NCBI RefSeq assembly: GCF_005795905.1
Contig: NZ_VAWE01000001.1
Coordinates: 3,952,001 to 4,016,000, forward strand
DNA: 64,000 bases
DNA from: Streptomyces marianii
GTDB taxonomy: Bacteria > Actinomycetota > Actinomycetes > Streptomycetales > Streptomycetaceae
Direction: 5' to 3'
The notes beneath the pieces were generated by a model. The model searched no databases and was not told the DNA's origin. It worked only from the letters and a program-made list of their open reading frames with translations. The position numbers and the translations under genes were made by a program. Below, in pieces: positions 2,993-13,106 of this stretch (position 1 is the stretch's first letter; every line of letters starts with the position of its first letter).

Positions 2993-4653
2993 TGTCTAAT
3001 CAACGGGTCTGGCCCGTAGTCGGTGGTGACGGCCAGTAGCCATCAGCGCAGGAGGATGCGGTGGCGGAGGAGGTCGAATCCGGCGCGGCCGTGCATCTGT
3101 CTCATGATCCGTTTCGTTCTGGTGTTGACGCCTTCGGTGCGGCCGTTGTGGTAGGGCAGGGTGAGGCCGGCGTCGATGGCTGAGCGGTCGAGTTCGAGTC
3201 CGTTGGCGAAGCTGTGCAGGTGGGGCAGCGCCGCGGCGCGGGTGGCGATGATCCACCCCGTGAGCTTCACATCGTTGTCCAGGAGCGGCGTGAGCAGGGC
3301 CGCGAAGTCGCGTACGAGGTTGGCGAGTTCGGTCATCTCAGGGCAGGCTGCGGTGATCTTCTCCAGCAGGGCGGTCTGTTTCGGGCGCAGGTGGTCTGGG
3401 TCGGTGAGGAGGAGCCGCGCGGCGCGGCGTGGGGTGGGGTGGTGACGGGCCGGTCGCCGTCGGCGCGGCCCTGGTTGAGGTATTTGTGCAGGCCGTTGAG
3501 GCTGCCGGTGTATCCGAGTTCCTTGATCTCGTGGAAGAGGTGGAGGACCGGGACGCCCGGCTCCTCGGTGCGGCGTCGGCGCAGGTGCTCGCGGTAGGCG
3601 TCAACGAGAGTGGGCCGGTAGGCCGGTGCGATGCGCAGGCCCGTGGGCTCGGGCATGCGGGCGTAGCGCTTGACGGTATTCAGCGCCAGGCCGAGGCGGC
3701 GGGAACAGTCCAGCAGCCCGACGCCCTGGCCGAGCAGGGTGTGGATCTTGTTCCAGCGTTCACGGGTGGTCTGCTCGCGTACTCCGCCGGGCAGCGGCGG
3801 GTTGAGGGCCGCGGCCCAGCAGTCGGCGTGGGCGCGGATTTCGAGCTGGACCTTGTCGCACAGGTTGCGCCAGATGTGCCAGCGGTCGCTGACCTGCACC
3901 GCGTCGGGCAGGGCGCGGCGGATGGCTTCGGCGTAGGTGGCTGAGCCGTCCCGGCAAACCGTCGTGATGCCGGGGTGTTTGCGTAGCCAGGCTTCCAGGG
4001 GACCGGCGTCCCGGCCGGGCAGGACCTCGATGCGCCGGCCGGTGATGGCATCGGTGATGATCGTGGCGTATCGGTGACGGCGCCGCAGCGCGAAGTCGTC
4101 CACTCCGATCACCGCGGGGACCGGCGCTTCGGGCGTCGGCAGGCGCCACAGCCACCTGAGCATGGTGGTACGGGAGGCCGGCACGGTGAGCCGGCCGGCC
4201 AGACGTGCGGCCGCCCGGCCGCATAACTCCCGTGCCACTTCGGCAATCTGCCTGGTCAGCCGCACCGTCCGACGCTGGTGGCGCTCCAGCAGCCCGGGAA
4301 CCTGCTCACGGAAGGTCTGCCGTGCACAGCCCAGAACCGGACAGACCAGCCGCCGCGCCCGCAAGCGGACGACGACCTGCCGACCGTCGACCGGCACGTC
4401 CGCCACCGTCCGGCGGTGATACCCGTGCACCCTCGCAGTCAGCGCCCCGCACGCTGGACACGGCACCGCCGCGTCCAGCGTGCGAGCTGTGACCACGACT
4501 GCGTCCCCGCCGTCCGCCACGTCCTCGACGAGCAATGCCGACAATCCCGAAAACACTGTGCTCACAAGCGAGTTGACATCCACCACAAGATCATGATCGC
4601 TGATGGCTACTGGCCGTCACCACCGACTACGGGCCAGACCCGTTAATTTGACA
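2993..4653 (-). mobile_element. ISL3-type insertion sequence with long perfect inverted repeats
   Basis: A 47-bp segment at 3002-3048 is the exact reverse complement of 4598-4644. With two mismatches the repeats extend outward to TGTC ends at 2993 and 4653. Inside is one transposase gene, split by a frameshift. Flanking 8-mers (ending 2992 and starting 4654) do not match, so no target duplication is seen. The long run of C after the right end (4656-4664) may hide slippage. Confidence 0.85.
3043..4586 (-). pseudogene. ISL3-family transposase, frameshifted
   Basis: The main frame (3333-4586, 417 residues) starts with a zinc-finger-like region, CPACGALT near residue 40 and a CPVLGC motif near residue 80. 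It continues through the DDE core with GVDDFALRRRHRYATI and the segment CRDGSATYAEAI. It then loses homology near nt 3420-3435. The C-terminal part continues in another frame (RLLLTDPDHLRPKQTALL, then the ORF 3043-3336 with NGRTEGVNTRTKRIMRQMHG). That places a single indel in a GC-rich CGCCGCGCGGC tract. The element is therefore probably unable to move itself, unless the indel is a sequencing error or a programmed frameshift. Family assignment rests on these motifs only. Confidence 0.85.
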
Positions 4654-4774: not shown

Positions 4775-5317
4775 TCACCTTCCGGAGGATCCTGCGATCT
4801 TGCCGTCCAGCAGCTCCAGCGCCTCCTCCCACCGGAAGCGGTCCGCTCCACCGCCTGCCTTGGGGCGGTGCGGCTCGTACGACCCGGCCAGCACGCCCAT
4901 CTTCCGCAGTTGGTCCAGGCTCCGGCCGTACGCCGGGTGTGCGGCCATGGCGGTGTTCACGTACGGCAGGACCACGGTCGGGATCTCCATCCCGTACGCC
5001 TCGCACAGGATGCCGAGGGCGAGGGTGTCGGCGATGCCGGCCGCCCACTTGTTGATCGTGTTGAACGTGGCCGGCGCCACGGCGATGGCGTCGGCAGGCG
5101 GGAGCGGGCGTGGTTCGCCGGGGCTGCGCCAGGCCGAGCGGATCGGGTAGCCGGTCTGGGCCTCGATGGCCTCGGTGTCGAGGAAGCCGAGCCCTTGAGG
5201 GGTGGCTATGACGCCGACGCCCCAGCCCTGCTCCTGCGCGGCGCTGATCAGCTTGTGGACGTCGCCCGCGATGCCGGCGGCGCAGACGACGACGTACAGG
5301 AACGGCTGTGCGGTCAC
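4775..5317 (-). CDS. Flavoprotein of the HFCD / phosphopantothenoylcysteine decarboxylase type
   Basis: A 180-residue protein starting with GTG that overlaps the upstream regulator's stop by 4 bp. It has the early beta strand typical of flavoproteins (FLYVVVCAAGIA), the substrate-loop region PATFNTINKWAAGIADTLAL, and the later PYVNTAMAAHPAY segment that corresponds to the PxMNxxM motif of FMN-dependent cysteine decarboxylases. Known members decarboxylate phosphopantothenoylcysteine or peptidyl cysteine. Only the decarboxylase-like half is present, with no CoaB synthetase domain, so a house-keeping CoA role is unlikely. It is co-transcribed with the XRE regulator and divergent from the MurA-like operon. 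Its substrate is unknown. Confidence 0.85.
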   Translation of the reverse strand: MTAQPFLYVVVCAAGIAGDVHKLISAAQEQGWGVGVIATPQGLGFLDTEAIEAQTGYPIRSAWRSPGEPRPLPPADAIAVAPATFNTINKWAAGIADTLALGILCEAYGMEIPTVVLPYVNTAMAAHPAYGRSLDQLRKMGVLAGSYEPHRPKAGGGADRFRWEEALELLDGKIAGSSGR

Positions 5318-6600
5318 GCGGGGACTCCCAGTCGGCGGCTGAAGTGGTGGAGCTCGGGCAGCGTACGCCGCCGGTCACGGGCGGCCATGTCGGCGACCAG
5401 GTCTCGGACGGCAGGACGGCGTACGTCCTGGGCGGCGCAGGTCTCGGCGATACGAAGGGCCTGGTAGCCCTCGGCCAGGCGGCCCTGCTGGTTGTAGGCG
5501 CGGGCTGCTTCGACCCACAAGGCCGCCCGGCGTTCGGGGACGGGGATGTGGCGGCGCATGAGGGGCGCGGCGGTGTTCAGGGCGATGCCGGCGTCACCGA
5601 AGGCGACCGCGGCGCTCACCGCGTGAAGGGCGAGGTTGGTGGGGCTGAAGTTCGCCCAGGCGTCGGGCCGGTCGAGGGCAACGTAGCGGGCGACGTCCTG
5701 GGCCTCGTCGAGAAACTCGCGGGTAGCGGCGCGGTCGCCGGCGGTGCTAGCGGCCGTGACCCCCCGCAGGAGGAGCAGGCCCACGGCGGCGAGGTAGCGA
5801 GGGGAACGTCGCTCATAGGAACCGGCGAGCTGTCCCGCCGTGTGCCGGACGAGAGTGACGGCCTGGGTGGTGTGCTTCTCGCGGGTCAGGACGTGGGCGT
5901 GCACACGGACGCTGGAAGCGAGGACGACGGGGTCGCCGGAGCGCTCGGCTTCGGCCAGGGCGCGGCCCACCGCGAGCCAGGCGTTGCCGTGGTCCCCTTG
6001 CTTGAGCAGCAGGCTGGTCGAGGTCTGGTACGCGGTGGCCAGGAGTCCGGCCATCTCGGCCTCGTTGCGGTGGTCGCCTGCGGCTTCCCGCAAGTCGGCG
6101 AGGAGGCTGGGCAGGGTGGTCTCCAGCTCCGCGTAGTCACAGGTGCAGAACAGACGCCGGGCGGCGGCGACGCGGGTCTCCAGCGAGCTCGTATCCGAGG
6201 CACCTCCCTGACCGGAGATCGGCCGCGGACCGGGGAGGAGGGCTCGGACGAGGTCGTCGTGGGTAGCCGTGGCGGGGGTGGTGGGGGCCGTGAGGGAGGC
6301 GATGCTCGCGGCGAGGAAAGTGCGGCGGCGCATGTCTTCTGTCTCGGGATCGTCGGGTGGTCCTGCTGCTGACGGGGCGGGGTCGCTCAGGCCGAGGATG
6401 TGGAGCGGGATGCCGAGTTCGGCGGCGACGGCGCGTAAGACCCGGGTGTCTTCCGTACCCCGTCCGCTCTCCAGGCGGCTGAGCTTCGACTGGTGGTAGC
6501 CCAGGGCGGTGGCGACGTTCGTCTGCGAGCGGCCGGCGCGCTGTCGGGCGTGCTTGATCGTCTCGCCGATCTTCTCGGCTTCGGTCTTCACGTCTGCCAT
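5314..6600 (-). CDS. XRE-family regulator with TPR-like C-terminal domain
   Basis: A 428-residue protein. The start at MADVKTEAEKIG is chosen because GGAAGG precedes it and the helix-turn-helix begins a few residues later; an in-frame ATG 34 codons upstream adds only poorly structured sequence. The HTH (residues about 12-66) has GRSQTNVATALGYHQSKLSRLE. The rest is helical and Ala/Leu-rich, with repeated pairs like those of TPR regulators. This type of actinomycete regulator commonly controls neighbouring genes. It shares a 4-bp overlap with the flavoprotein and is divergent from the HATPase operon, so it probably controls both through the intergenic region. Confidence 0.88.
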   Translation of the reverse strand: MADVKTEAEKIGETIKHARQRAGRSQTNVATALGYHQSKLSRLESGRGTEDTRVLRAVAAELGIPLHILGLSDPAPSAAGPPDDPETEDMRRRTFLAASIASLTAPTTPATATHDDLVRALLPGPRPISGQGGASDTSSLETRVAAARRLFCTCDYAELETTLPSLLADLREAAGDHRNEAEMAGLLATAYQTSTSLLLKQGDHGNAWLAVGRALAEAERSGDPVVLASSVRVHAHVLTREKHTTQAVTLVRHTAGQLAGSYERRSPRYLAAVGLLLLRGVTAASTAGDRAATREFLDEAQDVARYVALDRPDAWANFSPTNLALHAVSAAVAFGDAGIALNTAAPLMRRHIPVPERRAALWVEAARAYNQQGRLAEGYQALRIAETCAAQDVRRPAVRDLVADMAARDRRRTLPELHHFSRRLGVPA

Positions 6601-6667
6601 CCATGCCCTTCCGTCCGCGTCGAGCATGCCCCTGCGGTCGAGCGTAGGCGAGCGATGCAGGCGCTTC

Positions 6668-6682
6668 ATGCAGCTTCTGCAT
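6668..6682. promoter_or_regulatory. Candidate operator between divergent XRE and HATPase genes
   Basis: ATGCAG-CTT-CTGCAT is a perfect 6-bp inverted repeat in the 170-bp divergent intergenic region. Two further ATGC-containing words flank it (GATGCAGG at 6654 and GCGATGC at 6685). It is a reasonable site for the dimeric XRE regulator; this is inference from position and symmetry. Confidence 0.4.
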
Positions 6683-6770
6683 AGGCGATGCGGGACAGGC
6701 ACACGGCGTCGCGAACGGGGCTGACCGCGCGGTTCCTTGGGGTGGTCGATCCGACTCCTGGAGGCCGCTC

Positions 6771-7223
6771 GTGGAAGCGCAGCAGCTCACCTTGACTCTC
6801 CCGCCAACACCGGTCGCCGTGCCCACGGCGCGACGCCGGGTGCGGGAGGCCATAACCGTCTGGCCGACGGTGCCCGCGACGTCGGAAGCCATCCACACGG
6901 CCGAACTGGTCGTCAGCGAGCTCGTCACCAATGCGGTCCGGTACGCCGGTCATCAGCCGATCAGCGTCGTAGCCCAGCTCTCCGACACGGTTCTGCGCGT
7001 GGAGGTCAGCGACGCGAGCCGCACGCTGCCGACACCGGCGCTGCCTGACGAGGAGAGCGAGGGCGGACGCGGTCTCTTCCTCGTCGACGTCCTCTCGGAC
7101 CGCTTCGGCACGGCGCCGACTGACTCCGGCAAGTGCTGCTGGGCCGAGATCGACATGGCTGGCCCGCCTCCGGCCGGTGCTGCCGTCGCCTTGTCCCTTC
7201 CTACGCAGAGGAGTTGTACGTGA
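6771..7223 (+). CDS. HATPase-domain protein, anti-sigma-factor kinase-like
   Basis: 150 residues, GTG start with GGAGG 7 bp upstream. The N box is ELVVSELVTNAVRYAG and the ATP-lid region is VEVSDASRTLP followed by GGRGLFLVDVLSDRFG. This is the SpoIIAB/RsbW-like ATP-binding fold so abundant in Streptomyces. Known members bind or phosphorylate sigma-factor regulators, but many have no assigned partner. It is the first gene of the seven-gene operon and its stop overlaps the MurA-like start (GTGA), so it is probably a regulatory component of the cluster, working with the XRE protein. No sigma or STAS partner is adjacent. Confidence 0.88.
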   Translation: MEAQQLTLTLPPTPVAVPTARRRVREAITVWPTVPATSEAIHTAELVVSELVTNAVRYAGHQPISVVAQLSDTVLRVEVSDASRTLPTPALPDEESEGGRGLFLVDVLSDRFGTAPTDSGKCCWAEIDMAGPPPAGAAVALSLPTQRSCT

Positions 7224-8542
7224 GTACCCGCGTCCCCGCCGTCACGTCCCAGGTCATCGCGATCCGGCCCGGCCGGCCCCTCGCCGGCGCCGTGACGGTC
7301 GACGGTTCGAAGAACGCCGCGCTCCCGCTCGTAGCCGCTGCGGCAGCCCTCCTTCGCCCCGTCCGTCTGGACAACGTGCCCGCCAGCTCGGACGTCCAGA
7401 CCCTGCTGGATCTGCTGCGTCACGCGGGCTGGAACACCGAACATCCGGTCGGTGACGACCACACCGTCCTCGTCCTTCCCCGCGAGACGGCTCCGGCGCC
7501 CGACGGCCTGGGCGAGGCCGCGTCCAGCATTCGGGCCTCGTACTACCTCGTCCCCTCTCTGATCGCCCTGTGCGGCCGGGCCCGGCTTCCCTGGCCGGGC
7601 GGTTGCCGGATCGGCGACCGCGGGATGGAGCAGCACTTCAAGGTGTACGAAGCCTTCGGCGACCGCGTCCGCGTAGATGACAACGGGTACGCCGTCGAAG
7701 CAGGCAAGGCGGTTCGTGGCACGGTGTCGTTGGTCCTGCCGTTCCGCTCGCGCGGGGCGACGATCGCCGCGGTCCTACGCGCTGTGGTCGCCAGCACGCC
7801 GCTGCGGCTCGGGCAGCCGAACCTCTCCCCGGAGGTCCTCGGCGTCCTGAACGCCCTGACGGCCGTGGGGTACCCATGCCGTGCCGGCGATCGCGTCCTC
7901 ACCCTCGTGCCGCCGTCTTCCGTCCTGGAAGAGGACGTACCCGTCTGGAAGGTTCCGGGAGACAAGATCGAGGCCGGGACCTTGGCCTGCGCCGTGGCCG
8001 CAACCGGCGGCACCGCGCGGATCGACGGCGTCCACGGACCCGATGTCACACCGCTGGTCGGCGCCCTCCACCGGATGGGCATCCCCACGACCAACGAACC
8101 GGAGACCCTGGTCATTCACGGACGGGACACCCAACCGACCGGCCGCCCCCTGCGGGCCATGGCCACACTGGCTCCCGGTGGCCTCGACGCCGACTTCGAG
8201 CCGCCTCTCCTCGGCCTCGCCCTGGGCTTCCCCGGCACCCACCTGTTCTCGGACCCGATCAACCCCGGGCGCCACAGCAACCTCATCCCGCAGCTCGTCC
8301 GCATGGGCGGCGAGATCACCGAACTGTCCTCCACCGAGTGCCGGTTCACTGGCCCCCAGAGGCTGACGGGTGCGGGAGTGGAGGCGACCGACATCCGCAC
8401 GGGTTCGGCACTGATGGTCGCCGGCCTCACTGCTCGTGGCGTCACGACCCTCGGCGGGGTCGACCAGATCCGTCGCGGCCATGCCGACCTGCCCGGGAAG
8501 CTTCTCACCCTCGGAGCCGACATCTGCGAGGTCACCCCATGA
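7220..8542 (+). CDS. MurA-like enolpyruvyl transferase
   Basis: 440 residues. The GTG at 7220 is chosen because AGAGGAG lies 6 bp upstream and the homology begins at once; an upstream in-frame ATG at 7133 lies within the HATPase gene. MurA/EPSP-synthase features are the DGSKNAALPL lysine loop near residue 30, the PGGCRIGDRG loop with the PEP-binding Cys at residue 129, an Asp in GLDADFEPPL, and DIRTGSALMVAGLTARG near the end. MurA transfers enolpyruvate from PEP to UDP-GlcNAc. NikO and PolA are relatives that use UMP in nikkomycin and polyoxin synthesis. Clustering with nucleotide-type enzymes favours a nucleotide-like acceptor over cell-wall synthesis; this is inference. Confidence 0.9.
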   Translation: MSTRVPAVTSQVIAIRPGRPLAGAVTVDGSKNAALPLVAAAAALLRPVRLDNVPASSDVQTLLDLLRHAGWNTEHPVGDDHTVLVLPRETAPAPDGLGEAASSIRASYYLVPSLIALCGRARLPWPGGCRIGDRGMEQHFKVYEAFGDRVRVDDNGYAVEAGKAVRGTVSLVLPFRSRGATIAAVLRAVVASTPLRLGQPNLSPEVLGVLNALTAVGYPCRAGDRVLTLVPPSSVLEEDVPVWKVPGDKIEAGTLACAVAATGGTARIDGVHGPDVTPLVGALHRMGIPTTNEPETLVIHGRDTQPTGRPLRAMATLAPGGLDADFEPPLLGLALGFPGTHLFSDPINPGRHSNLIPQLVRMGGEITELSSTECRFTGPQRLTGAGVEATDIRTGSALMVAGLTARGVTTLGGVDQIRRGHADLPGKLLTLGADICEVTP

Positions 8543-9771
8543 CCGCAACCAGGCGCTTCCAGCGAATCATCGCCACCACCGACATCCACTCGGCCTTCGA
8601 CGACGCCCTCCCGATGCTCGCGCACCTGCACGCCATGAGGCACGACAGCCTCGTCGTCGACTGCGGGGACTTCTTCGAGGGCACGGGCTACTACCGACTG
8701 GGCAAGGGCGCCGTCGAGCGGGACATTCTCACGACGCTGTACGACGTGCTGGCGCCCGGCAACCACGGCTGGCCACACTACTTCGAGCCCGGCCTGCGGG
8801 AGATGACGGTCTGCGCCAACGCCGTCGACGACGCCACCGGACGACCGCTGCTCGACCGTCTCCGTGTCGTAGAGGTGCACGGCCGCCAAGTCGCCGTCAC
8901 AGCGGTCATCGGCGTCAGCGCGTTCCACACCATCCCCGCCGACGAGCGGGCGGGGCACCTCGTCACCGACCCCGTGACTGCGCTACGCGAGCTGATGCTG
9001 GAACACCACCACCACGTGGACTCGTGGATCGTGCTGTCCCACTCCGGTTTCGACGAGGACCTCAAGCTCGCCGACGCCTGCCCGTTCGTGGACGTCGTCT
9101 TCGCCGGCCATTGCCACAGCGACACCTACGGGCCGGTGCACGTCGGTGACACCCTCGTCGTCAAGGGCCGTGAGCTGGCCGACGGATACGCCGCCGCCGA
9201 ACCGGTCGGCTCCGGGTGGGCCGCCCGGACGACCGTCTTCCCCGCCCCTGCGACGGTCTCGGACGAGCTCGCCGTCCTGGACAAGCAGCTCGACTCCACC
9301 TGCCGGATGCTCGCCACTCCTCTCGGCGCCGTCAACGAGCCCTACTGCAACGCCGTCCTCAACCGCCACCGGCTCCTCCAGGACATCGCTGCCCGGCTGC
9401 ACACCGGCCTCGGCGCCGACGCGGTCGTCCTCAACGACACCACCCTTCGCCCCACCCTCCTCGGCGACATCCTGACGCTCGGCGACCTGCTGGCCATCGA
9501 GCCGTTCGACAACCAGCTCGTCCACGCCTTCCTCCCCGACAAGTACGCGGAGGATCCGAACGTCCTGCTCAAGCACCTGACCAAGCAGACCGGCCCCCTG
9601 GCCGTCGTTCCCTGGCCGCTGCCCCAGGGCACCCGGTCCGTCCTGACGACCGACTACCTCGCCGACACGCACCTCGGCGGACGCACCCACCAGGCCGGCC
9701 TCCGCCTCGGCGAGGCCGTCCGTCGCACCCTCGCCACTCCGCCGCCCGACCAGGAGGAAGGCGCACGATGA
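8539..9771 (+). CDS. 5'-nucleotidase-like metallophosphoesterase
   Basis: 410 residues, ATG overlapping the previous stop. The N-terminal metallophosphatase domain shows the metal-binding motifs in order: TDIH (DxH), CGDFFEG, PGNHGW, SHSGFDED and GHCHSD. The C-terminal part (from about residue 240) resembles the 5'-nucleotidase substrate domain, with DAVVLNDTTLR and GDLLAIEPFDNQLV. There is no signal peptide, so unlike UshA it should act in the cytoplasm. Known relatives remove phosphate from nucleotides. In this operon it would suit dephosphorylation of an enolpyruvyl-nucleotide intermediate. It overlaps both neighbours by 4 bp. Confidence 0.88.
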   Translation: MTATRRFQRIIATTDIHSAFDDALPMLAHLHAMRHDSLVVDCGDFFEGTGYYRLGKGAVERDILTTLYDVLAPGNHGWPHYFEPGLREMTVCANAVDDATGRPLLDRLRVVEVHGRQVAVTAVIGVSAFHTIPADERAGHLVTDPVTALRELMLEHHHHVDSWIVLSHSGFDEDLKLADACPFVDVVFAGHCHSDTYGPVHVGDTLVVKGRELADGYAAAEPVGSGWAARTTVFPAPATVSDELAVLDKQLDSTCRMLATPLGAVNEPYCNAVLNRHRLLQDIAARLHTGLGADAVVLNDTTLRPTLLGDILTLGDLLAIEPFDNQLVHAFLPDKYAEDPNVLLKHLTKQTGPLAVVPWPLPQGTRSVLTTDYLADTHLGGRTHQAGLRLGEAVRRTLATPPPDQEEGAR

Positions 9772-10307
9772 TCCTCACCGGCCCCGAGATCACCGCCGCC
9801 GCCCACGACGGCCGTCTGACGATCAGCCCATTCGAATCCGGGCAGGTCAACCCCAACAGCTACAACGTCCGCCTCGGCCCCAGTCTGCTGACCTACACGA
9901 CCGCGGTCATCGACGCCCACCGGGCGAACCCGACCACCACGGTCAAGATCGGCGAGGACGGGTACGTGCTTCAGCCCGGCGAGCTCTACCTCGGCCACAC
10001 CCTCGAACAGGTCGGCTCCGACACCTTCGTCCCGCTGCTGTTCGGCCGCTCCTCCGTCGGCCGACTCGGCCTGTTCGTCGAGATCACCGCCCCCATCGGC
10101 GACATCGGCTTTCACGGCCAGTGGACCCTGATGCTCTCCCCGATCCGCCCCCTGCGCGTGTACGCCGGCATGAAGATCGGGCAGATCATGTTCTTCGTCT
10201 CCACCGGCGACATCGACCTGTACGCGGGTAAGTACCAGGCGGCCGACGGCCCCCAGCCCTCTCGCTGCTGGCGGGATGTCACTCGCGTGGGGGCGGTCGC
10301 GCCGTGA
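9768..10307 (+). CDS. dCTP deaminase-like protein, catalytic Glu replaced
   Basis: 179 residues. The Dcd/dUTPase fold is clear: NSYNVRLG near residue 25, LQPGELYLGHTLE near residue 70, GRSSVGRLGL near residue 90, IGDIGFHGQWTL and then YAGMKIGQIMFF. The triphosphate-binding Ser/Arg loop RSSxxR is intact. The residue that aligns with catalytic Glu138 of E. coli Dcd (VLEF) is Met here (TLMLS), so deaminase activity is doubtful. Dcd enzymes are trimers with active sites at subunit interfaces. The following gene has the opposite pattern, so the two may form one hetero-oligomer. ATG overlaps the phosphoesterase stop. Confidence 0.88.
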   Translation: MILTGPEITAAAHDGRLTISPFESGQVNPNSYNVRLGPSLLTYTTAVIDAHRANPTTTVKIGEDGYVLQPGELYLGHTLEQVGSDTFVPLLFGRSSVGRLGLFVEITAPIGDIGFHGQWTLMLSPIRPLRVYAGMKIGQIMFFVSTGDIDLYAGKYQAADGPQPSRCWRDVTRVGAVAP

Positions 10308-10839
10308 TCCTCACCGGGCCTGCGATCACAGCCTCCATCCGTGCCGGCGAGATCATCATCGACCCGTACGACCCCGCCCGCGTCTCCACGAACGCCTACG
10401 ACTGGCGCCTCGGCAACGCTCTCCGGGTCTGCGCCGGTGACCTCGACGCCGCTGTCCCACCGCCTACACCGAGCAGACGATCCCCAGCACCGGCCTGGTC
10501 CTCCGGCCCGGGCTGCTCTACCTCGGCGTCACCCACGAGCGGACCGGATCGGAGGCGTACGCGCAGATGCTGAACGGCGACCGCACCGTCGGCGCCCTCG
10601 GCATCTGGGTCCACGTCTCTGCCCCGCTTGGACACCAGGGCCACGCGATCCGCTGGACCCTGGAGATCCGGGCTGCGCGGCCCGTCCGCGTCTACCCGGG
10701 CATGACGTTCGGCAAGCTGGTCTTCCTGGCCGCCCAGGGCACACCGGCCAGCTACCAGCAGCAGCTCGCGAAGTACGCCTCCACCGAGGGCATCGACATC
10801 TCCCGCCTTTACGAGGAGATCGGCGGAGACAGTCGATGA
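10304..10839 (+). pseudogene. Second dCTP deaminase-like gene, frameshifted
   Basis: The GTG start overlaps the first deaminase-like stop. The N-terminal part runs in frame to about nt 10450 (NAYDWRLGNALRVCAG). The rest continues in another frame (YTEQTIPSTGLVLRPGLLYL, then the ORF 10567-10839), so one indel lies near 10445-10465. The reconstructed protein is about 178 residues. It keeps the catalytic-Glu segment (RWTLEIRA) but has GDRTVGALG where GRSSxxRLG is expected, losing the Ser and Arg. This is the mirror image of its neighbour. If the indel is a sequencing error the gene is intact; if real, the protein is lost. Confidence 0.75.
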
Positions 10840-11953
10840 ACTCCCCCGCCAATCCCTCTCCAGGGCCGATGACCGCCACGTTCCTGGACATGCCCGCCGG
10901 CAGCCCAGGCGGCAGCGTCGAACTCTTCCTCGACCTCTACACCGGCGAGAAGTCCCTCATCCCCGCGAGGGCCTTCATGCTCGCCCCGGCCGGACCCCGT
11001 CCCCGGACTCCGACCGGCCTCGACCTGCTCAGCGCAGGCGGCAAGTGCTTGGAGGGACCGGCCTTCGGCCGCTACGTCGCCGCCCTGCACAGGGCGCTGA
11101 CGGCCGCGATCAACCCTTCCGAGATCGACGTCCTGCACCTGCACCACCTTGCCTTCGGCGCCACCCCCGCCCTGATGAGGGCCCTACCCACGCACCCCCG
11201 CATCGCCCTGGTCCACGGCACCGATCTACTCTTCGCCGAAGCCCACCGCGACCAGCTCCAGGTCCTGAGGGCAACCGCCCGGGCCGCCGACGCCATCGTC
11301 GTCCCCACCGGCGCCATGGCCGACCGCCTCCTCAAGCTCGCCCCGCAGACCGATCGCCGCAAGATCACCCACATCCCCTGGGGCATCCCCGACCGGCTCC
11401 TCAGCTGCCCGTTAGTCCGCACCACCCACCCGCTGAGGAGCCACCTGCGGCTGCTGTACGCGGGCCGGCTGACGGCGGAGAAGGGCGTCGAGGCCCTGCT
11501 CCGGAGCGTGGCTCTGCTCCAGGGCGTCGAGTTGTCGATCGCCGCCCCCAGCACCCAGTTCCGTGTTCTGGCCCCACGGCTGCAGCGGGCCGGGGTGAGA
11601 ACCCGCTACCTCGGCTGGCTCCGCCGTCCCCAGCTGTGGAAAACGTTCACCGAGCACGACGTGCTCGTCATGCCCTCCACGACCCTGGAGGCCATGGGCC
11701 TGGTCGCCCTGGAAGCCCAAGCCTGCGGCCTCCCCGTCCTCTACCAGCCCATTCCCGGCCTCAGTGAAGCGCCCGCTCCGGTATGGCCACCGACTTCACC
11801 CAGCCCGCCGCCCTCGTCCGAGACCTGGACCGCCTGCGAACCGAACCCGGTCTCCTCCCCGCCCTCCGGCAAGCCGGGTACGCCAACGCCGCCCGGTACC
11901 TCCTGTCGAAGACCGCCCGAGAACTGGCCGACCTCGGCCGCCAGCTCACCTGA
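10836..11953 (+). pseudogene. Glycosyltransferase (GT4-like), frameshifted near its 3' end
   Basis: ATG overlaps the previous stop by 4 bp. The first about 310 residues read as a GT-B enzyme: GGSVELFLDLY near the N-terminus, HLHHLAFGATPALM, VHGTDLLFAE, a LLYAGRLTAEKGVEAL nucleotide-sugar region and the donor-binding EAMGLVALEAQACGLPVL. After LSEA (nt about 11767) homology continues in another frame (ARSGMATDFTQPAALVRDL) to the TGA at 11951-11953. A one-base change therefore separates the last 60 residues. It would glycosylate the product of the cluster. The acceptor is unknown. Confidence 0.8.
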
Positions 11954-12062
11954 GACCAGCCGGGCCGGGCAACGCCCGCGACCACCGGCACGCCAATCGC
12001 CCGGCCCGACCGGCCCACCTCACTACGCTGGCCGCTGGGATGCCCACACGAAGAGGGAGACC

Positions 12063-13106
12063 ATGCCGTACCGCACCGAACGCATCGAGAACCTGCTGAG
12101 CGAAGGCGTCCGCGACAAGGTCTACCCGGGCGCGGTGTGGGCCGTCGGCGACCCCGGCGGAGTCCGGGCGACGGGTGCCACGGGCGTCCTGGACCCCGAC
12201 GAACCGGACGTGAGGATGCGGCCGGACACCGTCTTCGACGCCGCCAGCCTCACCAAGATCCTCGCTGTCTGGGCCTCCATCGGAGCCCTGTGGGAGGACA
12301 GCGTCCTCGACCTCGACGCCCCGCTCGGCACCTTCTGGGACGAGGTCACCGGCCACCCCCTCGGGGCCGTGACCGCCCGCCAGCTCCTGACCCACACCGC
12401 CGGCCTCCCCCTCCGGGCCCAGCTGGAGAACCTCTACGGAACCGACCCCGTCGGCATCCGCCGCGGAGTCCTGCACGAAGCCCTCAACCGGCCGCCCGGC
12501 GAAACCGTCGAGTACACCGACCGGGCCGCCCTCATCCTCGGCTACCTCGCCCAGCACCTCTCCGGCCTGCCGCTCGACCAGCTCTGCGAGGCGAGGACGT
12601 GGCGCCCGCTGGGCATGGACTCCACCCGCTTCGGCCCGCTACCCGCCGACATCGCGTTCCGATGCGCCCCCACCGAGCTCGACCAGGACACCGGCACCCA
12701 CCTCAAGGGCACCGCGCACGACTTCTCCGCCCGGCTCCTCGGCGGAGTATGCGGCATCGCCGGCACCTTCACCGCCCTCGACGACCTGGCCGTCTTCCTG
12801 CGCTACATGCTCGACCACACCACCGCCCCCGCCGAGGCCGGCTTCGGCGCCGAGTGGACCGCCCACTCCCTCACCGTGCAGACCGGCGGCCTCCAGCCCG
12901 AGCGCGGCTTGTTCTGGCACGCCGCCCCGGGCACCACCGACGAGCAGGATGTCTGGGTCCACTACGGCTTCACCGGCACCGGCATGTGGATCTCGCCCGC
13001 CCAGGACCGGTGGGCGGTACTGCTGACCAACAAGCTCTACTACACCCGCGACCGCCAGCCGCTGACCGATGTCCGCAACGCCTTCCGAGAGATGACGTTC
13101 AACTGA
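12063..13106 (+). CDS. Serine hydrolase of the class C beta-lactamase family
   Basis: 347 residues, ATG with GAAGAGGGAG just upstream. The SxxK nucleophile motif is DAASLTKIL near residue 60, the second motif is YTDRA near residue 155 and the third region is HYGFTGTGMWIS near residue 300. There is no signal peptide, so it is probably cytoplasmic, unlike true beta-lactamases. Family members include esterases, transesterases and D-aminopeptidases; several work as acyl transferases in natural-product pathways. It is 109 bp after the glycosyltransferase, without overlap, and ends the operon. A role in hydrolysing or acylating the cluster's product is inference. Confidence 0.87.
   Translation: MPYRTERIENLLSEGVRDKVYPGAVWAVGDPGGVRATGATGVLDPDEPDVRMRPDTVFDAASLTKILAVWASIGALWEDSVLDLDAPLGTFWDEVTGHPLGAVTARQLLTHTAGLPLRAQLENLYGTDPVGIRRGVLHEALNRPPGETVEYTDRAALILGYLAQHLSGLPLDQLCEARTWRPLGMDSTRFGPLPADIAFRCAPTELDQDTGTHLKGTAHDFSARLLGGVCGIAGTFTALDDLAVFLRYMLDHTTAPAEAGFGAEWTAHSLTVQTGGLQPERGLFWHAAPGTTDEQDVWVHYGFTGTGMWISPAQDRWAVLLTNKLYYTRDRQPLTDVRNAFREMTFN

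Follow-up and report, generated by a model that had tools for sequence, protein, structure and literature searches.

A mobile Streptomyces gene cassette with two Dcd-like proteins of divided catalytic residues and a possible role in making a nucleotide-derived metabolite

Introduction

In the synthesis of nikkomycin and polyoxin, an enolpyruvyl transferase of the MurA/EPSP fold (NikO or PolA, which act on uridine monophosphate, UMP) and a phosphatase (PolJ) work on a pyrimidine nucleotide (PMC5365060). In the bifunctional deoxycytidine triphosphate (dCTP) deaminase:deoxyuridine triphosphatase (dUTPase) enzymes of Mycobacterium tuberculosis and Methanocaldococcus jannaschii, one chain carries all the catalytic residues. 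Here, we examine a cassette of nine genes in Streptomyces marianii that resembles both systems in part. It occupies positions 4775..13106 of a stretch of 64,000 nucleotides (the window), which corresponds to 3952001-4016000 of the largest contig of the 9.0 Mb genome. Two adjacent proteins of the cassette, D1 and D2, have the fold and motifs of the dCTP deaminase (Dcd) family but, judged from their sequences, split the deaminase Glu and the dUTPase-type residues over two paralogues.

The likeness to nikkomycin and polyoxin synthesis is limited. Those clusters contain a radical S-adenosylmethionine (SAM) enzyme and an aminotransferase, both absent from the cassette (Pfam identified no radical SAM enzyme among its nine proteins), whereas the Dcd pair, a family 4 glycosyltransferase (GT4) and a serine hydrolase of the cassette are extra. 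A further parallel, by annotation only, is the phaseolotoxin cluster with its two Dcd genes in tandem: phtJ-phtK are both annotated as deoxycytidine triphosphate deaminase and lie beside phtL, a pyruvate phosphate dikinase (PPDK) (PMC3927611). According to a 2024 review, few genes of that cluster have assigned functions (PMC11278893). Searches of the open-licence PubMed Central literature turned up neither this cassette nor paired Dcd proteins with divided residues, and the cassette appears to be undescribed in the part of it that was searched.

Results

D1 (9768..10307, plus strand) passes the curated cut-off of the dCTP deaminase family TIGR02274 (103.8 bits, cut-off 92.8) and aligns over its length with the M. 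tuberculosis Dcd:Dut enzyme (77.5 bits), with Met at Glu129; D2 (10304..10839, plus strand) is present in the window as a fragment that scores 37.2 bits, below the same cut-off. After removal of repeats, the D1 and D2 sets held 76 and 75 rows, and six rows that were cross-assigned or housekeeping, three on each side, were taken out (L127_a, L065_a, L130_a, L062_b, WIN_b, L130_b), giving cleaned sets of 73 and 72; the window D2 stands outside the 72 because its frame is interrupted. In the cleaned sets, every D1 has Met for the deaminase Glu (73/73), the RSSxGR motif (73/73) and the Gln (73/73), and every D2 has the Glu (72/72) and Lys for the Gln (72/72), with RSSxGR in 0/72. The motif III residue at position 119, counted before cleaning, is Asp in 74/76 D1 rows and His in 72/75 D2 rows. 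In neither cleaned set did Glu129 share a chain with RSSxGR and the Gln, as 0/73 D1 rows had the Glu and 0/72 D2 rows had RSSxGR or the Gln.

Glu129 of the M. tuberculosis enzyme is the deaminase residue; structures with the mutants E138A and E145Q at the equivalent place have been solved. In the mycobacterial enzymes, Ser102, Asp119 and Gln148 are required for dUTP hydrolysis, with Asp119 contacting both the 3'-OH and the catalytic water (PMC3360063). D1 therefore has the dUTPase-type residues but not the deaminase Glu, and D2 the reverse. On this sequence evidence the two are complementary, and the divided pair, a variant of a known enzyme family, is the strongest new point of the present work; the initial annotation had recorded two dCTP deaminase-like proteins here but had overlooked the split between them. 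A structural model of D2 from the Streptomyces tanashiensis copy (L070; mean predicted local distance difference test score, pLDDT, 81) was nearest to M. tuberculosis Dcd:Dut, with a template modelling (TM) score of 0.86. Phage matches to D1 came to 107 records, all below 60% identity, and the 20 listed among these 107 are annotated as ordinary dCTP deaminase or dUTPase.

Similar pairs occur well beyond the cassette. With a relative of D2 as query, a match at E <= 1e-26 was obtained in 42/295 Streptomyces genomes; in many of them two matches lay next to each other in clusters other than the cassette. We analysed 30 pairs, a set chosen from those found as covering the kinds: 12 of the M-type of the cassette or close to it (L051, L066, L076, L119-L122, L126, L131, L218-L220), 4 of type D (L214-L217), 6 of type B (L208-L212, L227), 4 of type C (L213, L228, L229, L231), 2 of type F (L142, L207) and 2 from Rhizobium (L230, L233). 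The partner with the Glu was labelled alpha (D2 in the cassette) and the other beta (D1), so that the Glu count is circular; the rule of one of each, the Asp and the tree are independent of the labels. Exactly one partner had the Glu in 30/30 pairs, and both partners were found together in 30/30. The Asp was present in 0/30 alpha and 30/30 beta proteins, and Ser, Arg and Gln in 30/30 beta and 14/30 alpha proteins. Each of the five positions was present in at least one partner of all 30 pairs, and all five residues were present in 30/30 housekeeping Dcds. In a FastTree phylogeny the 60 paired proteins grouped together (support 1.0), with alpha as a clade (0.884).

Enzymes of the kinds common in small-molecule pathways repeatedly neighbour Dcd pairs. 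Type B clusters combine the pair with a phosphoesterase like that of the cassette, a TauD dioxygenase, PIG-L, WbqC, a GT4 and a MurG-like GT28, and in two of them (L210, L227) an aminoacyl-tRNA synthetase (aaRS)-like ligase and a HIT protein were identified. The logic of mycothiol and bacillithiol synthesis resembles this type B combination of GT4, phosphoesterase, PIG-L deacetylase and aaRS-like ligase; the window has neither PIG-L nor the ligase. Two proteins (P0183, P0192) whose names point to bins of Candidatus Saccharibacteria and Patescibacteria, and which may be mis-binned, are 61% identical to a type B alpha Dcd. In type C clusters, on plasmids, the pair is joined by a methyltransferase, a glycosyltransferase (GT4 or another) and genes of nucleotide-sugar or oxidoreductase type, and type E (L218, L220) holds the pair with a GT4 like that of the cassette. 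Type F contains a P450, the pair, an aaRS-like protein, methyltransferases and a pyridoxal phosphate-dependent (PLP) decarboxylase. On the two Rhizobium plasmids, a methyltransferase and a NUDIX protein come after a pair with the same asymmetry, and metallophosphoesterases lie nearby. In type D the two Dcd genes lie 7-10 kb apart, and beta sits on an open reading frame (ORF) of more than 800 residues in 4/4 loci. In L216 of Streptomyces, the one type D locus that was annotated, beta is fused to PPDK domains and accompanied by the second Dcd, an L-amino acid ligase, a fatty acid desaturase and a urease-like protein; two Dcds, PPDK, desaturase and ligase are ingredients that also figure in the gene list of the phaseolotoxin cluster (PMC3927611). 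The window has no PPDK, desaturase or ligase.

The cassette around D1 and D2 has a compact layout. F (4775..5317), an HFCD-type flavoprotein (PF02441), and R (about 5314..6600), an XRE regulator of uncertain start whose ORF is open to 6702, lie on the minus strand, and the start of F and the end of R share 4 bp. Divergent from these, on the plus strand, are H (6771..7223), a HATPase_c_2 (RsbW-like) protein; M (7220..8542), a MurA-like enolpyruvyl transferase; P (8539..9771), a metallophosphoesterase; D1; D2; G (10836 to about 11953), a GT4 glycosyltransferase; and S (12063..13106), a serine hydrolase with the beta-lactamase/esterase fold. Genes overlap by 4 bp at five of the six plus-strand junctions (H/M, M/P, P/D1, D1/D2 and D2/G), G and S having no overlap; the seven head-to-tail genes with mostly 4-bp overlaps of the initial annotation are thus borne out, and its families and coordinates agree with ours. 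An ISL3-family transposase (3333..4586, minus strand) adjoins the cassette as a neighbour and not as a member.

Gene order was compared across Streptomyces genomes, as the initial annotation had suggested. M matched at E <= 1e-80 in 32/295 genomes, the window's own included, and 33 survey loci were taken from the other 31; a scan of named genomes gave a further set of 64 loci, and 16 loci were recognised as shared by these overlapping sets. The order M-P-D1-D2-G-S is kept in 31/33 survey loci (the exceptions being L062 and L067) and 56/64 named loci. Among the 8 named exceptions, several are short or at a contig edge, and L130 retains only a broken M. The arrangement is more than chance, because all nine genes are likewise arranged in 29/33 survey and 50/64 named loci; F is in the same place in 29/33 survey loci, and H is the least conserved member. 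Hosts are mainly Streptomyces but include Kitasatospora, Streptacidiphilus, Yinghuangia and Promicromonospora. D1 itself matched at E <= 1e-40 in 5/394 genomes of the class, all of them from the window's genus, and one of the five (45% identity) belongs to a different cluster, the type F locus L142.

M scores highest against MurA (163.5 bits), twice its score against NikO (4fqd; 83.5 bits), and on these scores we rejected M as a NikO orthologue. It nevertheless falls below the NCBIfam MurA cut-offs (TIGR01072, 230.5 bits against 392.7; PRK09369, 240.8 against 297). A Lys, an Asn, both early Arg, the Cys, an Asp and three C-terminal Arg, mapped from the alignment to MurA, are identical in 76/76 rows, and M thus keeps the residues of the phosphoenolpyruvate (PEP) reaction; the initial annotation was exact in stating that the PEP-binding Cys129 is kept. 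Two segments depart from MurA: the uridine-side loop after the catalytic Cys, of RPVDL type in MurA, reads RG[MI][EDN][QLME] (typically RGME[Q/L]), and the FPSVG segment is FRSRG. The host's own MurA has RPIDF and YPSVG there. Whether M acts on a nucleotide other than uridine diphosphate N-acetylglucosamine (UDP-GlcNAc) is, to our minds, evenly balanced, and by analogy a NikO-like step is plausible. Elsewhere in the genome, a second extra MurA-like protein (L003, C1 1908328-1909599) has an ORF that opens with a helix-turn-helix-like stretch, and a 338 kb contig carries a short MurA-like stretch (L068, C2 158637-158864) that is 48% identical to the C-terminal part of M, with an S-like match (34%) nearby.

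The metal-ligand motif residues of P (D-x-H, GD, N-H, S-H and G-H-C-H) are kept in 72/72 rows. Its model, covering the full length with a mean pLDDT of 90, is a predicted two-domain 5'-nucleotidase of UshA type, and the best match was E. coli c4898 with cytidine or uridine bound (3ive/3ivd; TM 0.75). The Asp of GNHE.D, a member of the usual catalytic dyad in this family, is missing from P, which has GNHGW followed by a variable residue. P has no hydrophobic signal-like start, and among the proteins covered (F, R, H, M, P, D1 and S) none had a hydrophobic segment with a Kyte-Doolittle mean above 1.65, as would be usual for a membrane span. Both Glu of the EX7E motif of G are kept in 68/68 rows, and G has a weak similarity to MshA/BshA. 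S has SxxK in 72/72 rows and is a hydrolase of the beta-lactamase fold, for which we make no claim of drug resistance. The C-terminus of R resembles NsdA/TPR regulators (NF053720, 70.1 bits, under the cut-off of 75).

The setting bears out the probable island of the initial annotation. A 208 kb plasmid of Streptomyces sp. NBC_00161 carries one copy of the cassette. An upstream relaxase has relatives in 37/64 named loci, two integrases have them in 13/64 and 6/64, and at least one of six mobile-element-type proteins (which include a DUF2637 and an IstB-like protein, and one without a Pfam identification) has a relative in 40/64; a search of the window, L141, L144 and L068 with these proteins gave no match. 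In the window genome the cassette is about 10 kb from the housekeeping dcd and tRNA-Gly(CCC), and between these and the cassette, some 8 kb upstream of it, is a truncated second F-R copy, which is a sign of repeated insertion at this place. That copy corresponds to L141:12218-13710 (C1 3948217-3949709) and retains residues 109-425 only of R. In L130, dcd, tRNA-Gly and the broken cassette stand in a row. A tRNA was found in 8/60 sources scanned, so the dcd/tRNA-Gly site is one of several. From these sequence comparisons, the locus is best described as one copy of a conserved, horizontally moving cassette.

Discussion

Here, we propose that the locus is a small cytosolic pathway to a nucleotide-derived metabolite in which the Dcd pair forms one asymmetric enzyme, and we give this combined proposal about an even chance. 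That D1 and D2 work as one enzyme is probable; that the cassette is biosynthetic for a nucleotide-derived compound is somewhat less so, though still favoured. The initial annotation had considered a nucleoside product plausible, which is partly supported, and a nucleotide-derived product is still the best reading, because the P model is nearest to cytidine- or uridine-bound structures, the PEP residues of M are kept, and Dcd pairs stand beside small-molecule enzymes; M, however, is not a NikO orthologue by its bit scores.

How might the pair work? The subunit origin of the motifs is taken from PMC12524310, and by analogy we infer that motif sharing across subunits holds for Dcd too. In a mixed D1/D2 trimer, a beta-beta site would have Ser102, Asp119 and Gln148 of the dUTPase-type reaction, and a beta-alpha site would take Ser, Arg and Gln from beta and the deaminase Glu from alpha, so that the two reactions of the bifunctional enzyme would be divided between two sites of one particle. 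The pair might then convert a cytidine- or deoxycytidine-type nucleotide to a uridine-type monophosphate, M would place the enolpyruvyl group from PEP on a hydroxyl of that monophosphate or of a related nucleotide (as NikO/PolA do on UMP), and P would remove the 5'-phosphate (as PolJ does) (PMC5365060). G may add a sugar and S may cleave or transfer an ester, with R, H and F being mostly putative regulators. The order of these steps is a guess.

Several observations weigh against this proposal. It is hard to see why ordinary metabolites such as UMP and dUMP should call for a special Dcd. As alpha is without the Asp that contacts the 3'-OH, the mixed site would not be an ordinary site for dCTP or another 3'-OH deoxynucleotide, and its ligand is possibly a ribonucleotide or a 3'-modified nucleotide. 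The split-trimer model draws on single-chain predictions and sequence, and in the tree alpha alone forms a clade, beta forming none. M is nearer to MurA than to NikO, and it can be missing: a single locus (L219/L224) has P-D1-D2-G-S without an M match, and L218/L220 have D1-D2-G with both M and P missing. In the former, about 2.8 kb of inserted DNA splits G. The cassette is without a transporter. Phaseolotoxin is not a nucleoside. Its cluster also has a Dcd-annotated gene pair (PMC3927611). Finally, two of the seven plus-strand genes of the window copy are interrupted, with a change of reading frame within D2 near 10455 and within G near 11770, which the initial annotation, right about the layout of the cluster, overlooked.

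These breaks, in a cassette of which relatives have intact copies, could mean that the window copy is decaying and serves no function in its host, an explanation that we rate a little below even and for which the truncated F-R copy upstream and the transposase alongside also speak. They may instead be assembly errors, and the frames of F, R, H, M, P, D1 and S are all unbroken, with alignments over nearly their full length. It is also conceivable, if rather unlikely, that D1 and D2 are functionally unrelated; D1 would then be a dUTPase-type enzyme acting as a homotrimer, and D2 an enzyme in its own right or a protein with a binding or regulatory role. Beta by itself has the equivalents of Ser102, Asp119 and Gln148, so a beta homotrimer could hold complete dUTPase-type sites, and in 14/30 pairs motifs II and IV are kept in alpha too. 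The constant company of the two partners in all 30 loci speaks against this independence, as does the alpha of the other 16/30 pairs, which by itself has none of the Ser, Arg and Gln that a site for a nucleotide phosphate needs.

Two further readings would give the cassette as a whole another purpose. It might serve the cell envelope, with M as a third MurA-type enzyme acting on UDP-GlcNAc or another UDP-sugar, G building a glycan, S trimming it and the pair binding a nucleotide sugar. MurA is indeed the nearest relative of M, the related type B clusters carry MurG-like GT28 and PIG-L, and G has its weak MshA/BshA similarity; yet all, or almost all, M rows depart from MurA in the uridine-side loop and the FPSVG segment, the seven proteins covered show no hydrophobic segment above the Kyte-Doolittle threshold, and a 5'-nucleotidase and a Dcd pair fit poorly, which makes an envelope role unlikely. 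Slightly less likely still is defence against phages or other elements through nucleotide pools, either by the pair destroying dCTP or another nucleotide upon infection or by the enzymes making a chain-terminating nucleotide. M, G and S are not known to have a role in depletion systems, and the clusters that contain the pairs are diverse, featuring TauD, PIG-L, P450, ligases and methyltransferases. A patchy, mobile distribution, the XRE regulator and the known use of dCTP deaminases in nucleotide-depletion defence (PMC11084316) are what such a role has in its favour. The initial annotation had offered nucleotide-targeting defence as its alternative, and this finds little support, since PADLOC matched R alone of the nine proteins, through its helix-turn-helix, leaving D1 and the D2 fragment without a match, and D1 is missing the deaminase Glu.

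Returning to the asymmetric pair, a wider version of our proposal is that alpha and beta form a new heteromeric enzyme class, with a reaction other than plain dCTP deamination, that opens several different small-molecule pathways. We regard it as a long shot. The pathways so opened would be those of the window cassette and of the TauD/PIG-L/GT4, P450, phaseolotoxin-like and Rhizobium clusters. In one bold form, ammonia from cytosine C4, released at the alpha-type site, would attack the alpha-phosphate at the beta-type site. The resulting uridine 5'-phosphoramidate would supply P-N bonds, and this would account for the company that the pair keeps with a PPDK-like kinase in a phaseolotoxin-like cluster and with a HIT protein in type B clusters.

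Being small, conserved and soluble, the cassette lends itself to rebuilding the pathway in vitro from six proteins of a harmless soil bacterium. If our proposal is true, proteins that are automatically annotated as dCTP deaminase (D1 passes the curated cut-off) would be half-enzymes of specialised metabolism, and the pair would be a searchable mark for nucleotide-derived pathways that no single mark has joined so far. Two genes of the phaseolotoxin cluster that are so far unexplained would also gain a role.

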